Origin: Kordia zhangzhouensis
Lineage (GTDB): Bacteria; Bacteroidota; Bacteroidia; Flavobacteriales; Flavobacteriaceae
Length of the DNA: 64,000 nt
Direction of reading: 5' to 3'
Assembly: GCF_001005305.1 (NCBI RefSeq)
Contig: NZ_LBMH01000006.1
Span: forward strand, 248,001 to 312,000
Shown here: positions 1,295 to 10,424 of the stretch, in pieces
Layout of the letters: every line of letters begins with the position of its first letter
Numbering within the stretch: the stretch's first letter is position 1
The notes under the pieces: model-generated
Databases searched by the model: none
Seen by the model: only the letters and a program-made list of their open reading frames with translations
Told to the model about the DNA's origin: nothing
Position numbers and translations under genes: made by a program

Positions 1295-2248
1295 TCAATG
1301 TTTAAGAAATTGTATTATGTATGCGATTAGTACACTAACGATTAGTCCAAGGTTTACTTTGGCAAGATCTTTAGCAATTAACTTATACGATTTTTTTAAT
1401 TGCTCTTTTTGAAGAGTATATCCAAGAGCAAGTTCTCTTCCTGCCAATATTCCTATAAAAGCCCAAGTTGTACTCATAGGAATAGAACTGATATTTCCTA
1501 AAACAAGTAGTAAGATTCCATAAGTAAAATCTATAATTGTAGCCGAGCGAATGTTGGCAGTATTCGATTTCTTATTAACAATATCTTGAATACTTCCTCC
1601 TCTATTTTTAAATATGTACGCCATGATTGTTAAGATGATTCCCAATGCAATCAGCAGTTCTATAACGGTAAGCTGTCTTGGTAGAAAAACAAATATATTG
1701 GCAAAATCTTGAATTAACCATTGTGACCATAAAAACCCTGTAGAAAACCACTGAGCAACCAACCAATAGTGATGTTGTTTCTTAACATTCATAAGTCTTA
1801 TGGATGCACGTGATTCAATTTTTTTAGAAATAAAACCATATAATAGCATAGCAGATACAAATGCAATTGCGTATCCTAAAACAGATTTAAGAATCATCTT
1901 TTCTATAATTTGACTAGAAGAAAATATACTTAAAATCATAAATGTGGTACTGACAGGAATTCCAAATCTAGTTATTACCAACAAACAAAGAGGTGCTAAA
2001 AGATACCACCATTCGATGACCGATGGCAATGGAATTTTATTTAGTCTTCCATATGAAACATCTCCCGCATTTATAAACCAGCCGTAACAAAGCGTGAGGG
2101 ATAAGATGATTGCAGCAAAACTCCACAATAACCACCACTTTTTCTTTTCATTAGATGCCAAAAAAGTACCTAACGTTTGAATAACATCATTAGCGATTAC
2201 CGCATATGCAGTAATGATAAAACCTAAGTAAACGATAAAAATCTCCAA
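1295..2248 (-). CDS. PiT-family (PHO4) inorganic phosphate transporter-like membrane protein
   Basis: 317 residues, roughly nine to ten hydrophobic segments. The two inverted halves of the phosphate permease fold can be seen: residues 20-31 (NDVIQTLGTFLA) match the N-D-x-x-N-x-x-G-T motif of the first half, and IPVSTTFMIL (about 98-107) and IPMSTTWAFIGILAGRE (about 256-272) match the P-x-S-T-T-H-A motifs. The usual His after S-T-T is replaced by Phe or Trp, and the protein is shorter than typical PiT proteins (about 330-500), so substrate could differ from phosphate. Only a TTG codon (2246-2248) is available as start. The frame is open up to the stop of the epimerase gene 27 bp upstream. It is the last gene of the six-gene operon, so it may import or export a compound of that pathway. 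Confidence 0.7.
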   Translation of the reverse strand: MEIFIVYLGFIITAYAVIANDVIQTLGTFLASNEKKKWWLLWSFAAIILSLTLCYGWFINAGDVSYGRLNKIPLPSVIEWWYLLAPLCLLVITRFGIPVSTTFMILSIFSSSQIIEKMILKSVLGYAIAFVSAMLLYGFISKKIESRASIRLMNVKKQHHYWLVAQWFSTGFLWSQWLIQDFANIFVFLPRQLTVIELLIALGIILTIMAYIFKNRGGSIQDIVNKKSNTANIRSATIIDFTYGILLLVLGNISSIPMSTTWAFIGILAGRELALGYTLQKEQLKKSYKLIAKDLAKVNLGLIVSVLIAYIIQFLKH

Positions 2249-2275
2249 CTGATTTTTTTTAAATATGTATGAATG

Positions 2276-3334
2276 TTACTCAATTTTTCCTAACCCTGGC
2301 GAGTTTGATGGATATAATATCCCTTTTTTAAGAGTAAAAAGTGATTTAAAAGGATCGTTAATGATATCTAAGTGTCCGTCCAAATCAGCATATAATACAT
2401 TTTCTTGAGAAAGTGCAAAATGCAATCCTGCCGCAATTCCTAAACTACATTCATCAATACAACCAACCATGGCTTCGAGGCCAGCACTTTTTGCAACCGA
2501 ATTGATATGCATGGCTTCTTTAATGCCACCTACTTTCATAATTTTAATGTTTATCATGTCAATGTAAGCTCCTTTTGCTAGTCGAAAAGTATCTTTCACA
2601 CTTTTAATGCTTTCATCTGCCATTACGGGAATCGTAGTTTTATCAGTAACTTTTCCCAAATGACTGTCTAAACCTACAGCAATGGGTTGCTCAAAAAATT
2701 CAATAGAAATATGTTTGGTTTGCTCATAAAATGAAAGCGCTTGTTCAGGTGTGTATCCTTGATTTCCGTCAAAGCGAAGTTCAATGGTTGGAAACTGTTC
2801 TCGCAAACGAATCATTTTTTCAACATCTTCTGCTACAGATAAACCGCCTTTTAGTTTGATACTTTGAAAGCCTTGTGCTACAAACTCTTTGGCTGTTTTT
2901 AGTGTATCTTCTAGCGTAATAATTCCTATGGTAATACTTGTAATGATATGATGACGAAAACCTCCTAAATATTGATACAACGGAATGTCAAATTTACGAG
3001 CCGCAAGATCCAATAACGCAATATCAACCATTGCTAGGGCAGACGATTTTTGCGTCAGCAATGGTTTCAATTCTACAAGGATTTGCGATGACATAAAGGC
3101 GTTTTTTCCTTTTAAAAAGGGAATGATAACATTTTTAATATCACTTTCCACATCGTTTGCAGATTCTCTAGTAACTACTTTATCAGGTGCGGCACAACCA
3201 TAGCCAACAAATCCGTTTTCCGTTTCAACTTTTAGGGTAAAATTGACAGCTGTACTCACCGTTTCATACGCAATAGTATACGGCTCAGATAGCTGTAAAT
3301 CTAGTTTTTCGTAGGATATACGTGTTATTTTCAT
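2276..3334 (-). CDS. Dipeptide epimerase (enolase superfamily, L-Ala-D/L-Glu epimerase-like)
   Basis: 352 residues, cytosolic. The enolase-superfamily layout is complete: an N-terminal capping domain (1-120), then the barrel with catalytic K160-x-K162 (SIKLKGG), metal ligands D189 (DGNQG), E215 (EQPI) and D240 (ADES), and catalytic Lys 264 (NIKIMKVGG). The D317-L-D319 motif matches the DxD that binds the dipeptide ammonium group in Ala-Glu epimerases, which favours a true dipeptide substrate. The family epimerises the second residue of dipeptides such as L-Ala-D-Glu from peptidoglycan turnover. A relative paired with a DUF1611 protein (DgcA with DgcN) has been described in marine bacterial D-glutamate catabolism as an N-acetyl-Glu racemase, so that activity is the alternative. 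Its start lies 15 bp downstream of the creatininase-like gene's stop. Confidence 0.88.
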   Translation of the reverse strand: MKITRISYEKLDLQLSEPYTIAYETVSTAVNFTLKVETENGFVGYGCAAPDKVVTRESANDVESDIKNVIIPFLKGKNAFMSSQILVELKPLLTQKSSALAMVDIALLDLAARKFDIPLYQYLGGFRHHIITSITIGIITLEDTLKTAKEFVAQGFQSIKLKGGLSVAEDVEKMIRLREQFPTIELRFDGNQGYTPEQALSFYEQTKHISIEFFEQPIAVGLDSHLGKVTDKTTIPVMADESIKSVKDTFRLAKGAYIDMINIKIMKVGGIKEAMHINSVAKSAGLEAMVGCIDECSLGIAAGLHFALSQENVLYADLDGHLDIINDPFKSLFTLKKGILYPSNSPGLGKIE

Positions 3335-3348
3335 ATACGGTATTCGGA

Positions 3349-4149
3349 TTAATATCTTTTTTGATACAAATCGTCAAGAGGTGTATTTTTAATACTTTCT
3401 ACAAAAGCAACCATGTTCCGAATCATAATTTCCCACATTTTTTCTCCTTTCTCTGCACTTGCTTTAGTGGCATCACCCATAATTCCACTTTCAGAGATTT
3501 TATTGGTTCGTACATACCAACTTACGCTTCGCTCATCGTCAAAATCAAGAAATGTACTTCCAAAAGTTAAGGTTTCATTCACTGCTTTATCCATTTGTAC
3601 CATTTCAGGACGTAAAGCCAAGCTCGTACTGGTTTCTATTTCGCCTGCATGCGCATCGTTTGGCGTATCAATCAGATTGAGTAAATCAACATCACTAGTT
3701 TCTCCAGTATCAACGCAAACAAATATTTTTGCATCGCGGTTAATCATTTGTGCTGCATAACTCAACGTTGGAGCATTGTCACCATGTCCGTTGAGAATGA
3801 TTATTTTTTTGACACCATTTTTGGCAAGACTCATTCCTAAATCATATACGAATTTAGACAAAGCTTCATTGGTAACACTCAAGGTTCCTTTAAAATCTTC
3901 ATGATGGTAACTTACTCCAAACGGAATAGGAGGCAACACCAAAGGTCTTGGTTCTTCACACGCTTCTGCTACTTTATACGCCATATAATTGGCATCAAAA
4001 TAATCAATATCTACCGGTAAATGTGGCCCGTGTTGTTCAATGGCTCCACAAGGTAAAATTACCGTGTCTACTTTTTTTAAGTATGCTTCCAGTTCAGGCC
4101 AAGTTTTTTGTTCCCAAAGGAAGTCTACTTTTTTATAAGGTTCTTTCAT
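3349..4149 (-). CDS. Creatininase-family amidohydrolase
   Basis: 266 residues. The creatininase/MftE/formamide-hydrolase fold is indicated by the metal-binding motif GAIEQHGPHLPVDID (E38, H40, D49), then YHHEDFKGT (81-89), NGHGDN (120-125, normally NGHGGN) and HAGEIETS (167-174, E170). The family hydrolyses cyclic or linear amide bonds using two divalent metals; members include creatinine amidohydrolase, an F420/riboflavin-pathway formamide hydrolase and the mycofactocin peptidase. The substrate here is unknown. The start overlaps the end of the PP-loop gene by 17 bp and the epimerase follows after 15 bp, so the gene is translationally coupled within the operon. An amidase opening a lactam or cleaving a dipeptide-like product would fit, but this is inference. 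Confidence 0.85.
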   Translation of the reverse strand: MKEPYKKVDFLWEQKTWPELEAYLKKVDTVILPCGAIEQHGPHLPVDIDYFDANYMAYKVAEACEEPRPLVLPPIPFGVSYHHEDFKGTLSVTNEALSKFVYDLGMSLAKNGVKKIIILNGHGDNAPTLSYAAQMINRDAKIFVCVDTGETSDVDLLNLIDTPNDAHAGEIETSTSLALRPEMVQMDKAVNETLTFGSTFLDFDDERSVSWYVRTNKISESGIMGDATKASAEKGEKMWEIMIRNMVAFVESIKNTPLDDLYQKRY

Positions 4150-5656
4150 TTTCTTTATGTAAAAAATAAGGAGTTTCTATTTGCTCCTCTGTTAAGTTAG
4201 CAACTTGCCATTTTCTGTTAGTAAGTTGCGCTGTGCCATCCGTATATTTTGAAAAAATGTGTAGTAACGGTTTTCGAATATACTTAGGCATGTCTTCTAA
4301 ATTACTACGCTCAGTATCAAAACGTAGCATGGTAATTTCTTTATGTTCTTTGGCTAGTTTTTCCGTATGTGAATTTTTGGCAATCAATCCTTTTTGTAAG
4401 AGTAAATGGTATAGTTGTGCAGCATCACTTCCTATTTGTTTTACACTTTGAGAAGCCAATGCTTGTAATGCTTTTTGTATTTGTTCATCCGTATACCCGC
4501 AACGTTTTGGATCTTCATCTAGCGCTTTTAACATTCCGACAATCCGTCTGCATTTTTCACAGTTTCCGCAAGGCAACATTTTGCCATCTTCTTCGTGAGC
4601 AGCGTGACAAGAAACTTGTAATTTTTGTAATTCAGGATAGCGCTTTACTAGAATTTTCAAAATTGAAAGTTCTGATAATGAGCGTAAAATGGAAAACTGA
4701 TGAATATCCCAACCCTTCTTTTTATAATAGCGTGTGAGTGCATTGTCAAAATATTTGCTTTGGTCATACAAACCATTGTAATGCGTAATGCCTTGATAAT
4801 TACTTTTTACAGAAGTATCATATTCATTACCAATTAAAATATTCCCAATATTCCTTTTGCTTGCTACAGGCAATACACCAAATAGAAACACCGCAACTGT
4901 CCATAAACGAATTGGATAAATGTCAGCTCGGATATTTTGAAAGTTTTCTTTGATGAATGGCATTTGTCGAACCATCCAGTTAAAAATACGATCACTATTG
5001 CACCAAGGTTTTGCCGTATTTGGCTCGTTTTCACGAAAGTGATGATGTGCATTTACAGCAGTAAACCAATGACGACCACTCTCGTTGATATATACAGGAT
5101 GCGGTTCGCCAATTTCTTGAATCAACCCGTAGGTTAATAAACTATCTTTTCCGCCACTACTAAGAATTGCATACGCATCTTTGTTTGTTTCTACAACTTC
5201 TTTTTGAGGTTGAAGGTTTTCGTATTTTGTGTTAACAAATACAACGTTAGCCGCCGTGTAGCGTTCCATTTTTTCTGGTTGAATCGCATCAAAAGGAGCT
5301 TTGAGGAATTCGTTTTTACCGAAAAATTTGTGCACTAAAATTTCTCTGGAAGTGTTTTCCATCATGTCCAAAAGAAATCGTTTGTCAGTTGCATCATACA
5401 ATCCGTCAAAAGAAACGGTTTCAAAGAACAGTCCGTAATTAAGAGCAACTTGTGCCACCATCATAGAGGCCAAATTTACATCTGCTGGATTTTTTTTCTG
5501 AAAATACGCCGCATTGTACGAATAAATCAGTTCGTTGCTTACTTCTGTAAGATCATTTTTAACAATAGTATACGTCGCTTTTACACGTTTTGGCTCTATA
5601 ACCAACGTATGAATTTTTAAGGTTTTAAATACAACTAACGAGCGAATGGTTGTCAT
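4133..5656 (-). CDS. PP-loop ATPase with Cys cluster, resembling MurL-type glutamate epimerases
   Basis: 507 residues, cytosolic. The PP-loop motif SSGGKDS is at 166-172, as in enzymes that adenylate a substrate and release pyrophosphate. A probable zinc site is formed by C350 and the CGNCEKC cluster (C363, C366, C369). The order of PP-loop, LIGNEYDTS (274-282), a long helical region with LRSLSEL (324-330) and CxxCxxC matches my memory of MurL, the ATP-dependent enzyme that inverts the terminal L-Glu of UDP-MurNAc-L-Ala-L-Glu. QueC, another PP-loop/zinc enzyme, is much shorter (about 220) and starts with its PP-loop. The N-terminal 150 residues are unassigned. Its ATG shares one base with the TAA of the DUF1611 gene. 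With an epimerase for Glu dipeptides in the same operon, glutamate stereochemistry is a natural hypothesis. Confidence 0.7.
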   Translation of the reverse strand: MTTIRSLVVFKTLKIHTLVIEPKRVKATYTIVKNDLTEVSNELIYSYNAAYFQKKNPADVNLASMMVAQVALNYGLFFETVSFDGLYDATDKRFLLDMMENTSREILVHKFFGKNEFLKAPFDAIQPEKMERYTAANVVFVNTKYENLQPQKEVVETNKDAYAILSSGGKDSLLTYGLIQEIGEPHPVYINESGRHWFTAVNAHHHFRENEPNTAKPWCNSDRIFNWMVRQMPFIKENFQNIRADIYPIRLWTVAVFLFGVLPVASKRNIGNILIGNEYDTSVKSNYQGITHYNGLYDQSKYFDNALTRYYKKKGWDIHQFSILRSLSELSILKILVKRYPELQKLQVSCHAAHEEDGKMLPCGNCEKCRRIVGMLKALDEDPKRCGYTDEQIQKALQALASQSVKQIGSDAAQLYHLLLQKGLIAKNSHTEKLAKEHKEITMLRFDTERSNLEDMPKYIRKPLLHIFSKYTDGTAQLTNRKWQVANLTEEQIETPYFLHKENERTL

Positions 5657-6726
5657 TATAATTTTGAACCAATGAGTTTGACCAATTTATCAGTGCCGTG
5701 TGCTAATACATCAAAAGCAGGCAAATTGGTTTGTTTGGTTATGGTATCACAAGCTGGCACAATGTCTTCCGGCTGCATCCCTTCATGGTTTACCGTAATG
5801 GCGATGACTTTGACACCTGATATCATTTCAATAGCTTGTATTTGTTTTTTTAACGGATGCAATTTATATCCAGGAAACCCATCATATTCTTTACGCGTTG
5901 GCGCATGTTGTAGGATGACAAAATCAGGTCTTCCTGCTGCTAAAATTTCAAAACCTCCAGGATATGCAGGATTCATCAAACTTCCCTGCCCTTCAATTAC
6001 TATGACCTCTGGTTTTTCATTTTTGTAAGCACTGACTACGGCATGTTCAATTTCGCCCGACACAAAATCGTTGATACAGCTATCCATAATCATACTGTAT
6101 TTTGCACCTTGCATCCAAGCAGTTTGCCCAGTTCCAATCATTTCGGCAGTATGATTCGCTTTGCGAAGGCCTTGTACAATCAACCATGCAGTGGTACGCT
6201 TTCCAATAGCAGAATCGGTTCCTAACACCGCCAGTTTGAGCGCGTGTACGTTTTCAATTTCTCCTGTAAAAAAGTGCAAGGCATCTCGATCGGGTGTTTT
6301 ACGAACGTCACGAATACGGCAGTTGTTAGCTTCTGCAATTGCAACAAGTTCTTTATCATTTGTTAAGAAATCGTGCAAACCACTATCCACATTCCAGCCC
6401 ATATTAAGAGCCTGTTTAATAGTTGCTTTTGCTTCTTTTGGCAATCTTCCTCCATCGGGAGCTAAACCAATGACTAATGACTTTGGCAACACACCTTTGT
6501 CACGCAATTCTTTTACAGCAGTAGTTAGATCACCAAATATTGGGATACCATTATTTTTTCCATCAAGGACTTTTCCTGCATCTTTTCCTGCATAGGTGTT
6601 ATCAAGAACTCCTACAATTTCATAGCGTTCTGTAAAGCGTACCAATCCATGTGCTGTTTTCCCTTCAGGTGTATTGAAAGCTCCTTCGCAAAAAACGAGG
6701 GCGCGTCCGTCTATCTTTTTTTTCAT
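5656..6726 (-). CDS. DUF1611 family protein (DgcN-like)
   Basis: 356 residues, cytosolic. An N-terminal Rossmann-like half (about 8-150, with a YEIVGVLDNTYAGKDAG segment near the start) is joined to a P-loop half with the nucleotide-type loop GTDSAIGKRTT (169-179) and the VIEGQGSLMNPAYPG segment. This is the DUF1611_N plus DUF1611 architecture. A marine member, DgcN, has been reported as a D-glutamate N-acetyltransferase that works with an enolase-superfamily racemase, and such an enzyme is encoded three genes downstream. Whether this protein acetylates D-Glu, another amino acid or a dipeptide cannot be told from sequence. It starts 11 bp after the PLP enzyme gene and its stop overlaps the next start (TAATG). 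Confidence 0.85.
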   Translation of the reverse strand: MKKKIDGRALVFCEGAFNTPEGKTAHGLVRFTERYEIVGVLDNTYAGKDAGKVLDGKNNGIPIFGDLTTAVKELRDKGVLPKSLVIGLAPDGGRLPKEAKATIKQALNMGWNVDSGLHDFLTNDKELVAIAEANNCRIRDVRKTPDRDALHFFTGEIENVHALKLAVLGTDSAIGKRTTAWLIVQGLRKANHTAEMIGTGQTAWMQGAKYSMIMDSCINDFVSGEIEHAVVSAYKNEKPEVIVIEGQGSLMNPAYPGGFEILAAGRPDFVILQHAPTRKEYDGFPGYKLHPLKKQIQAIEMISGVKVIAITVNHEGMQPEDIVPACDTITKQTNLPAFDVLAHGTDKLVKLIGSKL

Positions 6727-6737
6727 TTTCTTTATAA

Positions 6738-7799
6738 TTAATGTTTTGCTGTTATGACAGCGACAAAACGATCAGGTTCAAAGTTTAATTGATCGTCTAA
6801 TTCTAATAATCCTATAAGTCCAGCCGTGGAAGCTGGTAATATTTTCATACCTTCTTTTTTTAATATAAAAGAAGCCATGTCTTTTAATTTTTTATCACTT
6901 ATGTGAAATGCTTCTCCTCCCGATTCGCGCAAAGCATATAGTGCTTCATCTCCATCAAAGCTGTGCCAGTTGATTAGCGGTTCATTATAGAGCGTTTCTT
7001 TAATCATTTTGGGATCAAGATCCACGCATTCAGAAAGTCCCAACTTGAACGAGCTTATGATTGGATTTTTTCGAGTAGACGAAGCTGCAATCATTTTGGG
7101 AATCCTCGAAGTTTTTCCTCGCTTATGGAGTGTTACAAAACCACGATAAATCCCTGCAAATAATGTTCCGTTAGATACTGGTGCTGCGCAATATTTTGGC
7201 GCATCTCCTAAATCGTCTACAATTTCGTTAGCAATTTGCGAATACGCCGTTATTTGTAAAGGAGTATTGGCTCCTCCAGGATTTGCATCGTACCAATCAT
7301 TTTTTGACGCAACTAAAGTACTTGACTTTACGACATCTTCATAACTTCCGTCCAATCTGATAATTTCTGCCTGTAAAGCTTCCATTTCTTTGATACGTTC
7401 TGTATGGTAACTAGCTGGAATAAATATTTTACATTGAATTCCTGCTAAGTTTGCCGCCAAAGCAACAGCTACTCCATAGTTCCCACAAGTCGCTAATGCG
7501 ATGGTATCAAAATCACGACGTAAGGCGTCATATACTTGAGCAAAAGCAATACGGTCTTTTTGAGTTCCTGTTGGATTATCGCCTTCGTATTTAATGTACA
7601 ATTGTCTGATATCAAATTCGCGTTCAATGGTTTTTACTCTTGACAAGCTTGTATCGCCAACTTCAATGTTGATGATGTCTTCAAAACTTTCTAAGCGATC
7701 TATCAACGTTTTGTTTTTATCTTTAACAAAATCACTTAGTTTTCGCGTTTCTGAAGAAACTTTTATTTCTACAGACTTAACACCGTCTCTTAGTATCAT
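6738..7799 (-). CDS. PLP-dependent enzyme of threonine synthase/cysteine synthase fold type II
   Basis: 353 residues, cytosolic. The pyridoxal phosphate Lys is K81 in YEGDNPTGTQKDRIA, and the substrate loop is ATCGNYGVA (103-111, the TSGNxG motif of threonine synthases). Further family signatures are VSNGTLFAG (phosphate-binding region) and LPASTAGLIGL near the end. Homologues carry out beta- or gamma-replacement or elimination on amino acids. It is too diverged and lacks the usual neighbours (thrA, thrB) for a housekeeping threonine synthase. It is the first gene of a tightly packed leftward operon, 34 bp downstream of the ECF-type promoter site C, so it probably supplies or consumes an amino acid in the same pathway as the epimerase, DUF1611 and PP-loop enzymes. 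Confidence 0.82.
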   Translation of the reverse strand: MILRDGVKSVEIKVSSETRKLSDFVKDKNKTLIDRLESFEDIINIEVGDTSLSRVKTIEREFDIRQLYIKYEGDNPTGTQKDRIAFAQVYDALRRDFDTIALATCGNYGVAVALAANLAGIQCKIFIPASYHTERIKEMEALQAEIIRLDGSYEDVVKSSTLVASKNDWYDANPGGANTPLQITAYSQIANEIVDDLGDAPKYCAAPVSNGTLFAGIYRGFVTLHKRGKTSRIPKMIAASSTRKNPIISSFKLGLSECVDLDPKMIKETLYNEPLINWHSFDGDEALYALRESGGEAFHISDKKLKDMASFILKKEGMKILPASTAGLIGLLELDDQLNFEPDRFVAVITAKH

Positions 7800-7832: not shown

Positions 7833-7859
7833 TAAGACACAAAAATTGAATTAGGTCAC
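7833..7859 (-). promoter_or_regulatory. ECF-type promoter, site C (drives the six-gene operon)
   Basis: Minus strand GTGACC (7859-7854), then GTCTTA (7838-7833), with 16 bp between GTGAC and GTCTTA. The -10 element ends 34 bp before the ATG of the PLP enzyme gene at 7799. It shares CTAAT after the GTGAC with site B, so the two are the closest pair. Confidence 0.7.
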
Positions 7860-9700: not shown

Positions 9701-9817
9701 TTATGCTTCGTCGTTTTCTTCAATGTTTTCTTTAATCTCTTGAAGAATATCCTGTTTCAAATCTTCTGGAGGTTTGATTTCAGTTTCAATTTTCTTGAAA
9801 GGATTTTGTTCATTCAT
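9701..9817 (-). CDS. 38-residue protein translationally coupled to the ECF sigma gene
   Basis: A short open frame of 38 residues, ATG at 9815-9817 and TAA at 9701-9703. It overlaps the last 8 bp of the sigma factor gene, so it is in position to be translated from the same message. It is highly acidic and charged (M-N-E-Q-N-P-F-K-K-I, PPEDLKQDI, ending ENDEA) and has no membrane segment. Its first 24 residues match the 60-residue protein at 9429-9611, which argues that both are real. A role in controlling the sigma factor is plausible from position only. Confidence 0.6.
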   Translation of the reverse strand: MNEQNPFKKIETEIKPPEDLKQDILQEIKENIEENDEA

Positions 9818-10424
9818 TTTCTTGCAATTTTTGGTACACTTTAATCAGTTTAATACGCGCTCTTTTAAGTCGCATTTTCACAGCGCTTTCATTAATATGC
9901 AATAGGTTTTGTAGTTCTTTCACAGAGATATCATCTTGATATTTGAGCAATAATAAGGCTTTGTCGGCAGGTTCAATAAGATCAATTGCTTTTTCCAAAC
10001 CTGATACTTTCAGTTCAAATAAATCTTCTTCATCTACATCATCCACTTGTGTCAAATGTTTTTCGTTTTTATTTAGTTTTTCCCAACGTTCACCTAGTTT
10101 TTTACCTGTTTCTCTTTTTTTATAGTTCACCAAAAAATTATAGGTAAAAGAGTACAACCAAGTTGAAAACTTTGATCGTCCTTGGTATTTGTGAAGTTGT
10201 ACGAATAGTTTTAGAAAAATATCTTGTGTTAAATCTTGAGCCTCATCCGAATCTTCAGCAAAGCTATAACACTTATTGTATATTTTTTTACCATATCGAT
10301 CATACAATATCCCAAAAAGTGAAGGATCGTTTGTTTCAACGATGCGTTTTATCAACTCTTCGTCGGATAATAATCTTTTCTCTTTTTCGAGAGATGCACT
10401 AAATAAAATAATCATTCTTTTCAT
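9810..10424 (-). CDS. ECF RNA polymerase sigma factor
   Basis: 204 residues. Region 2 is seen at about 33-105, with DRYGKKIYNKCYSFAEDSDE and the AQDLTQDIFLKLF helix, and a region 2.3/2.4-type FSTWLYSFTYNFLVNYKKR. An acidic linker (VDDVDEEDL) leads to region 4 (about 145-200), whose helix-turn-helix is ISVKELQNLLHINESAVKMRLKRAR. The length is normal for an ECF factor. The first in-frame Met is used; a Met at residue 4 is an alternative. No classical membrane anti-sigma gene follows. Instead a 38-residue gene overlaps the 3' end. Five matching GTGAC/GTCTTA promoters within 10 kb surround this gene, so it is the obvious candidate to read them. I do not see that motif upstream of its own start. 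Confidence 0.92.
   Translation of the reverse strand: MKRMIILFSASLEKEKRLLSDEELIKRIVETNDPSLFGILYDRYGKKIYNKCYSFAEDSDEAQDLTQDIFLKLFVQLHKYQGRSKFSTWLYSFTYNFLVNYKKRETGKKLGERWEKLNKNEKHLTQVDDVDEEDLFELKVSGLEKAIDLIEPADKALLLLKYQDDISVKELQNLLHINESAVKMRLKRARIKLIKVYQKLQENE

Follow-up and report, generated by a model that had tools for sequence, protein, structure and literature searches.

Five consecutive genes in Kordia zhangzhouensis form a conserved operon made of two separable modules, which is best read as an accessory pathway of amino-acid metabolism, conserved and modular, in some Bacteroidota. The operon lies in a stretch of 64,000 nucleotides (contig NZ_LBMH01000006.1 of assembly GCF_001005305.1, positions 248,001 to 312,000; hereafter the window) and runs on the minus strand from position 7799 to 2276. 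From its 5' end it encodes a fold-type II pyridoxal phosphate (PLP) enzyme (THR), a DUF1611 protein (DUF), a PP-loop protein (PPL), a creatininase-family hydrolase (CRE) and an enolase-superfamily epimerase (EPI), and a gene for a PiT-like membrane protein follows. The pathway that we tentatively put first would be of the DgcN-DgcA type, capping and epimerising an amino acid other than glutamate, possibly a cationic one, with PPL and CRE added as an ATP-driven pair for activation and amide cleavage.

Conservation and modular make-up of the operon

An earlier note on this DNA had placed six packed open reading frames (ORFs) here, and all six were confirmed, as were the TAATG at 5656 and the 17-bp overlap of PPL and CRE at 4133-4149. 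The Pfam families matched were PALP (THR), DUF1611_N and DUF1611_C (DUF), Creatininase (CRE), MR_MLE_N and MR_MLE_C (EPI) and, below threshold, PHO4 (the PiT-like protein); PPL matched no Pfam family at E 0.001.

Genome contigs were scanned for PPL relatives by a search that reaches close relatives only. It returned 17 loci, all titled as Bacteroidota genera or Bacteroidetes metagenome-assembled genomes (MAGs). Thirteen further regions were added and, with L047 being a duplicate of L004, 29 distinct loci besides the window were compared. The order THR-DUF-PPL-CRE-EPI was uninterrupted in 21 of them; in two of these (L042 and L052) the contig stops within an end gene. DUF and PPL are about 8 kb apart, with other genes between them, in two loci (L009 and L051), and in one (L003) the contig begins within the cluster. 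The five partial loci hold PPL-CRE only (L011 and L012), THR-PPL-CRE (L015) or THR-DUF-PPL-CRE (L017 and L046). Across loci, the five proteins are roughly 44 to 87 per cent identical to the window's copies; the enolase-family match in L011, at 25 per cent identity, is not an EPI orthologue. Every other ORF cluster was confined to 5 or fewer of the 31 stretches (30 relatives including one duplicate, plus the window). This grouping of five genes is far beyond chance, and it is a real conserved operon; the search for its gene order in other Bacteroidota, which the earlier note had proposed, did not find the genes scattered in relatives.

Whole-genome searches, which covered Bacteroidota, showed PPL in 11 of 395 genomes at phylum level and in 11 of 397 at family level, the window's genome being among the 11 both times. 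A plasmid search for PPL relatives gave no match. The earlier note knew of no described pathway with this gene set, and in the open-access literature we found no description of the combination; most subscription papers lay outside that search.

PPL and CRE were neighbouring or fused in all 29 loci. In seven (L016 and L041 to L046) they form a single ORF of 774-802 aa, for instance at L016:9986-12310, L041:8393-10744 and L043:9238-11592, and the genome search reported matching open frames of 784-803 aa for the six fusions that it found. These fusions tie the two activities together. When 390 genomes of the phylum were searched with the EPI alignment, 18 scored above 500 bits and the next match reached 308; G062, whose EPI gene is seemingly divided between two contigs, brings the genomes with an EPI orthologue to 19. 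Ten of the 11 PPL genomes of the phylum search are among these, the exception being G183, and the remaining nine EPI genomes are without PPL. Around EPI (~20 kb read in eight of the nine PPL-free genomes), THR, DUF and EPI stood together without PPL or CRE in all eight loci, CRE having been sought only in this neighbourhood; THR is divergent in two of them (L096 and L097). The ninth PPL-free locus, L070, shows DUF and part of THR within its short flanks. Conversely, no EPI match above 300 bits was found in the genomes of L011, L012, L015 and L017 or in G183. In G773 (L011) and G775 (L015) the best DUF1611 match reached no more than 38-40 per cent identity, and there was none in G774 (L012); this converse check covered EPI and DUF1611, and THR was not sought in those genomes. 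THR-DUF-EPI and PPL-CRE are thus two separable modules that are often combined.

The DUF gene directly adjoins EPI in the eight PPL-free loci, and in the window, as in the five-gene loci, only PPL-CRE stands between the two. Of 12 more distantly related epimerases from Bacteroidota (L079-L090), 11 also have a DUF1611 gene within their 1.5-kb flanks, and DUF1611 with an epimerase is therefore a recurrent pair in Bacteroidota, like DgcN-DgcA. In G773 and G183 such a pair is located apart from the PPL cluster. The weak epimerase matches L102, L104, L106 and L107 have no DUF1611 gene in their flanks.

Two side observations were made in these loci. When L101 and L103 are taken with L079-L090, DUF1611 lies beside a dipeptide epimerase in 13 of 14, and most of these epimerases have Lys at position 24. 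In two Lewinella-type genomes a different enolase-superfamily protein follows PPL-CRE (L011:12902-14302 and L012:10685-11995), and the L011 copy is sugar-acid-dehydratase-like.

Table 1. Features of the operon region, with positions in the window
Feature	Position	Strand	Basis or remark
THR, fold-type II PLP enzyme annotated threonine synthase (PRK06381 type)	6738-7799	minus	NF004996, PALP
DUF, DUF1611 protein, DgcN relative, probable N-capping (acyl transfer) enzyme	5656-6726	minus	PF07755, PF17396
PPL, PP-loop protein with SSGGKDS and C-x12-C-x2-C-x2-C	4133-5656	minus	14-member alignment, model
CRE, creatininase-family metal amidohydrolase	3349-4149	minus	PF02633
EPI, enolase-superfamily dipeptide epimerase with E24/D51 signature	2276-3334	minus	PDB matches, MR_MLE_N/_C
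PiT-like membrane protein, downstream, outside the conserved unit	1295-2248	minus	sub-threshold PHO4
Shared upstream element GTGACCTA-N11-GTGTC, before the operon	7836-7859	minus	second copy 1223-1246, also minus

Catalytic residues and closest relatives of the five proteins

The best Foldseek and phmmer matches of EPI (mean predicted local distance difference test score, pLDDT, of the model 82.6) were the dipeptide epimerases 1jpm, 3jva and 3rit, and its top single PDB match was the Bacillus subtilis Ala-Glu epimerase, at 221 bits. Against the L-Ala-D/L-Glu epimerase model NF041118 it scored 233.9 bits, below the cut-off of 500. We aligned 32 EPI orthologues, leaving out L042, where EPI is cut by the contig end. 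K160, K162, K264 and D317/D319 were kept in all 32, and the DxD motif named in the earlier note is accordingly present (D317, D319), a motif with a role in dipeptide epimerases. K162 and K264 correspond to K162 and K268 of the Ala-Glu epimerase YkfB (1jpm), residues given as catalytic in a 2018 review (PMC5808125). D51 and D294 (YkfB position 298) were likewise each found in 32 of 32 orthologues. At position 24, where YkfB has an Arg that we take to contact the Glu side chain, EPI has Glu in 31 orthologues and Gln in one. Among 18 other epimerases aligned as an outgroup (L104 aligned poorly, and L102 has an unread residue at 51), Lys24 occurs in 11 and Glu24, not accompanied by D51, in two; the E24/D51 pair occurs in none. 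EPI shares the fold, catalytic lysines, Mg-site residues and DxD motif with YkfB and with the Methylococcus capsulatus epimerase (3rit), but the E24/D51 signature, present in 31 of 32 EPI orthologues and 0 of 18 other relatives, is the orthologues' own. By this comparison of residues, Glu at position 24 argues against Glu as the substrate of EPI, and the acidic positions 24, 51 and 294, of which the last two are acidic in the M. capsulatus epimerase too, would at most hint at a cationic one; the substrate of the pathway is probably not Glu.

DUF aligns with PDB entries 2g0t, 7xrj and 2obn and carries a Walker-A-like G-T-D-S-A-x-G-K-R-T-T at 169-179, each letter of which, except x, is kept in at least 14 of 15 members. 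The DgcN-DgcA pathway is referred to by name in passages of one paper (PMC10845958), as are a D-Glu N-acetyltransferase and an N-acetyl-D-Glu racemase in passages of another (PMC11747546). The likeness to that system lies in a DUF1611 protein encoded with an enolase-superfamily epimerase, the first of which would cap and the second invert. However, both equivalog cut-offs were missed widely (DUF against DgcN NF041892, 158.6 bits with a cut-off of 480; EPI against DgcA NF042940, 145 bits with a cut-off of 400), EPI is closer to dipeptide epimerases and keeps their DxD, and the operon holds three further enzymes. The resemblance to DgcN/DgcA that had been noticed earlier stands for the kind of pair; by these scores, DUF and EPI do not belong to the DgcN and DgcA families.

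The 14 PPL members share the motifs SSGGKDS, ESGRHW, WCN.DR, RADIYPIRLWT and C-x12-C-x2-C-x2-C. For the PPL model (mean pLDDT 84.4), the top Foldseek match was QueC (3bl5; E 1.9e-3, probability 1.00, TMt 0.65), followed by LarE (5udq) and Cap9 (9nto, TMt 0.60). The one NCBIfam match at E 0.001 was to MurL (NF041275), with 23.8 bits over residues 269-372 and a cut-off of 700; 10 of the 14 members matched this model at E up to 1, the best at 1.4e-5. The Pfam QueC family PF06508 was matched by one of the 14, at E 0.14, which is not a family assignment. As judged by these tests, PPL belongs to neither the MurL nor the QueC family, and its chemistry would be carboxylate adenylation. MurL itself, according to two papers (PMC8788868, PMC5808125), inverts a terminal Glu in one direction while converting ATP to AMP, probably via an adenylate, and is described there as being without known conserved domains.

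PPL resembles MurL in a remote similarity over about 100 residues and, we presume, in ATP-to-AMP chemistry. It differs in its score, in its creatininase-like partner, in the lack of a Mur ligase among the six genes of the run and in the presence of murI in the genome. The resemblance to MurL seen by the earlier note therefore holds for a remote sequence relative and no further. QueC and Cap9 share with PPL the fold, the SGGKDS loop and the four-Cys motif, which we take to be a QueC motif; PPL differs from them in about 155 more residues ahead of the PP-loop and in an operon context that is not the deazaguanine pathway. Clustering of PPL with base-modification enzymes had been named as an outcome that would speak against the original proposal. 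Since the nearest fold is that of QueC, a deazaguanine-pathway enzyme, this is in part what was found, although the match is weak.

CRE matches PF02633 at 234.9 bits (gathering threshold 31.3), which places it in the Creatininase family and agrees with the amidohydrolase assigned to the set beforehand. Its scores against MftE (147.2 bits, cut-off 172) and creatininase (114.6 bits, cut-off 235) are both below threshold. We assume that the metal ligands of creatininase are two Glu, two His and one Asp. Four of these five correspond to E38, H40, D49 and H122 of CRE, each conserved in 14 of 14 members. The likeness to creatininase and MftE consists of this Pfam family and these four ligands; CRE differs from both in falling below their cut-offs, in having Asp for Glu at the fifth ligand and in being coupled or fused to a PP-loop protein.

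THR passed the PRK06381 threonine synthase model (NF004996; 406.7 bits, cut-off 266), in agreement with the threonine-synthase-like enzyme listed earlier, but scored 96.8 bits against thrC TIGR00260, below the cut-off of 167.1. K81 is present in all 16 members. We take the phosphate-site residues of the Thermus threonine synthase to be T88, S155, R160 and N188. R160 is replaced by Q182 in THR (16 of 16 members), T88 by Y108 (15 of 16), and S155 falls at a variable site; N188 (THR N210, 16 of 16) is the sole residue of the site to be retained, three of four being lost. A separate thrC is present in the genome at 292.3 bits. THR probably does not serve as the housekeeping threonine synthase and may not be any kind of threonine synthase; genes of the THR type that carry this annotation may be something else. 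Beside EPI in L094 there is a threonine-aldolase-like gene (Beta_elim_lyase; L094:7950-8969, plus strand), and an ORF of the same length occupies the same place in L092, L093 and L098.

Candidate pathways

In the pathway that we favour tentatively, THR would make or break the amino acid by beta or gamma elimination or replacement. DUF1611 would cap the amino group of the free amino acid by acyl or aminoacyl transfer, as DgcN does on D-Glu, and EPI would then invert the alpha carbon of the amino acid in its dipeptide-like amide form. PPL, with its likeness to QueC and MurL, would spend ATP and adenylate the carboxylate of the same amide, which CRE, its metal amidohydrolase partner, would cleave. 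The overall sequence would be to cap, epimerise, activate and uncap. What the data show directly is the gene order, the fusion, the modular make-up, the protein families and the conserved catalytic residues; each reaction, the order of the steps and the substrate are inferred.

Several results weigh against this scheme. PPL-CRE occurs without close relatives of DUF or EPI in Flavilitoribacter and a Lewinella MAG, so the PPL-CRE step need not belong to epimerisation. DUF and EPI fall so far below the DgcN and DgcA cut-offs that their reactions may differ. D294 is common among the outgroup epimerases too and is no signature, and the M. capsulatus epimerase, solved with L-Arg-D-Lys, has acids at the equivalents of 51 and 294 and Arg at 24 (counted by eye); charge is therefore a weak argument for a cationic substrate. 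The match of PPL to the QueC fold is modest, with a TMq of 0.28 and no Foldseek match reaching E 0.001, and some of its conserved stretches were modelled below 50 pLDDT, the low-confidence parts being 242-244, 278-282 and 296-298. The fifth presumed creatininase ligand, a Glu, aligns with D124 of CRE (Asp in 13 of 14 members, Gly in one). PPL was found in neither of two further genomes from the genus of the window, and the loci have in common no substrate, transporter or regulator that would indicate the compound.

A possible but less likely use of these genes is the biosynthesis of a specialised metabolite, such as a modified dipeptide, amide or lactam. THR would supply an unusual amino acid, PPL would form an amide via an adenylate like QueC, CRE would trim the product or close a ring, and EPI would set the D configuration. 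The patchy spread of PPL in the phylum and family, its QueC-like fold and the beta-lactamase-like gene near five loci, with a transporter-like gene in four of these, are all consistent with such a route. As no other ORF cluster was frequent among the stretches, however, the loci have no exporter or tailoring enzyme in common, and the THR-DUF-EPI core stands alone in other genomes.

Somewhat doubtful is the catabolism of a D-amino-acid dipeptide or N-acylated amino acid from the environment, with CRE and PPL opening the amide, DUF and EPI leading to the L form and THR deaminating it. Loss of most of the presumed phosphate site in THR is what a lyase might show; the patchy distribution would suit this pathway as well, as would the aldolase-like gene of L094 and the ORFs of equal length in its place in L092, L093 and L098. 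Against it, the loci share no uptake system or regulator, and a costly DUF1611 cap would be unexpected where the substrate is an amide from the start.

The earlier note had also proposed to check whether murI is absent from the genome. It is present, with 217 bits against TIGR00067 (cut-off 146.65), so the wall does not need the operon as a substitute source of D-Glu, and a MurL-like replacement of MurI was rejected. A glutamate pathway, in which a DgcN/DgcA- and MurL-like route would make or recycle a D-Glu dipeptide or a muropeptide fragment, is improbable: in its favour are the matches of DUF to DgcN and of EPI to the DgcA and L-Ala-D/L-Glu epimerase models well above noise, the weak MurL-model match in 10 of 14 PPL members and the Ala-Glu epimerase as best PDB match of EPI, but the scores of DUF, EPI and PPL lie far under the curated cut-offs, the Arg24 that presumably binds Glu is replaced by Glu in 31 of the 32 orthologues, murI is at hand, and the Glu-containing product or substrate proposed before is not supported.

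To return to the cap-and-epimerise scheme, a stronger form of it, which we consider unlikely, would make PPL-CRE a new two-domain machine that couples carboxylate adenylation to amide cleavage and so pulls the reversible EPI reaction one way. It would be a third peptide-epimerisation system in bacterial primary metabolism, with MurL-like and enolase-superfamily relatives in one operon, acting on a non-glutamate, perhaps cationic, amino acid. The 2018 review (PMC5808125) counts two peptide-epimerisation machineries in bacterial primary metabolism, MurL and the Ala-Glu epimerase, and its authors knew of no others. The operon joins relatives of both, one of them remote, to a PP-loop and creatininase-like pair. 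Its five proteins have clear catalytic residues and make an enzymatically testable set, and the recurrent DUF1611-epimerase pair offers a new substrate specificity to find.

Upstream element and neighbouring genes

A repeated element precedes the operon. GTGACC-N(12-16)-GTGTC occurs twice in the window (expected, 0.02), and exact matches to GTGACCT-N(11-14)-GTGTC were found only at these two sites in the 4.03-Mb assembly. The two copies of GTGACCTA-N11-GTGTC lie upstream of the operon and upstream of the gene at 681-1148 (Table 1). When up to three mismatches were allowed, the longer element gave four sites in the window against 0.81 expected, the two added sites being at about chance level. 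A looser copy was seen by eye near 662-681 on the minus strand. In a script scan of 29 stretches including the window, the element was not seen upstream of THR in the 28 relatives, except for a palindromic variant in L014. A gene for a sigma factor of the extracytoplasmic function (ECF) type lies at 9810-10424, and similar genes are near the clusters of L010, L014 and L016; ECF sigma genes are common, so that their nearness to the operon may be chance. Of the single ECF-type promoter claimed for the operon, the element is real, but it is not conserved in relatives and the ECF label is putative.

The PiT-like protein scored 21.0 bits against PHO4, below the cut-off of 33.7. A relative was found near the operon in one of the 17 scanned loci (L014) and in none of the 13 further ones; the contigs of L008, L042 and L052 end at or soon after EPI, and its absence there says little. 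The gene is present in the window, as reported, but with a relative in only 1 of 30 loci it is not a member of the set, and the transporter was rejected as a part of the pathway.

Other neighbours recur in a few loci. A beta-lactamase-like protein is encoded near the cluster in L006, L007, L009, L014 and L051 (by Pfam for the L009 and L014 copies only), and four of these five loci have a TLC/HEAT transporter-like protein of 939-944 aa and four a PPDK_N-type protein. Present in four or five loci of few genera, the beta-lactamase-like, PPDK_N and HEAT-transporter genes were rejected as set members. Behind EPI, L014 has the PiT-like and beta-lactamase-like genes in an end-to-start overlap. Homologous proteins of 506-519 aa are encoded in 4 of the 29 loci (L009:13425-14954, L040:15260-16780, L041:13456-15015 and L051:5797-7326). 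The L009 copy combines a GNAT domain with a carbon-nitrogen hydrolase, and the occurrence of this GNAT-nitrilase protein near four loci is possibly due to chance.

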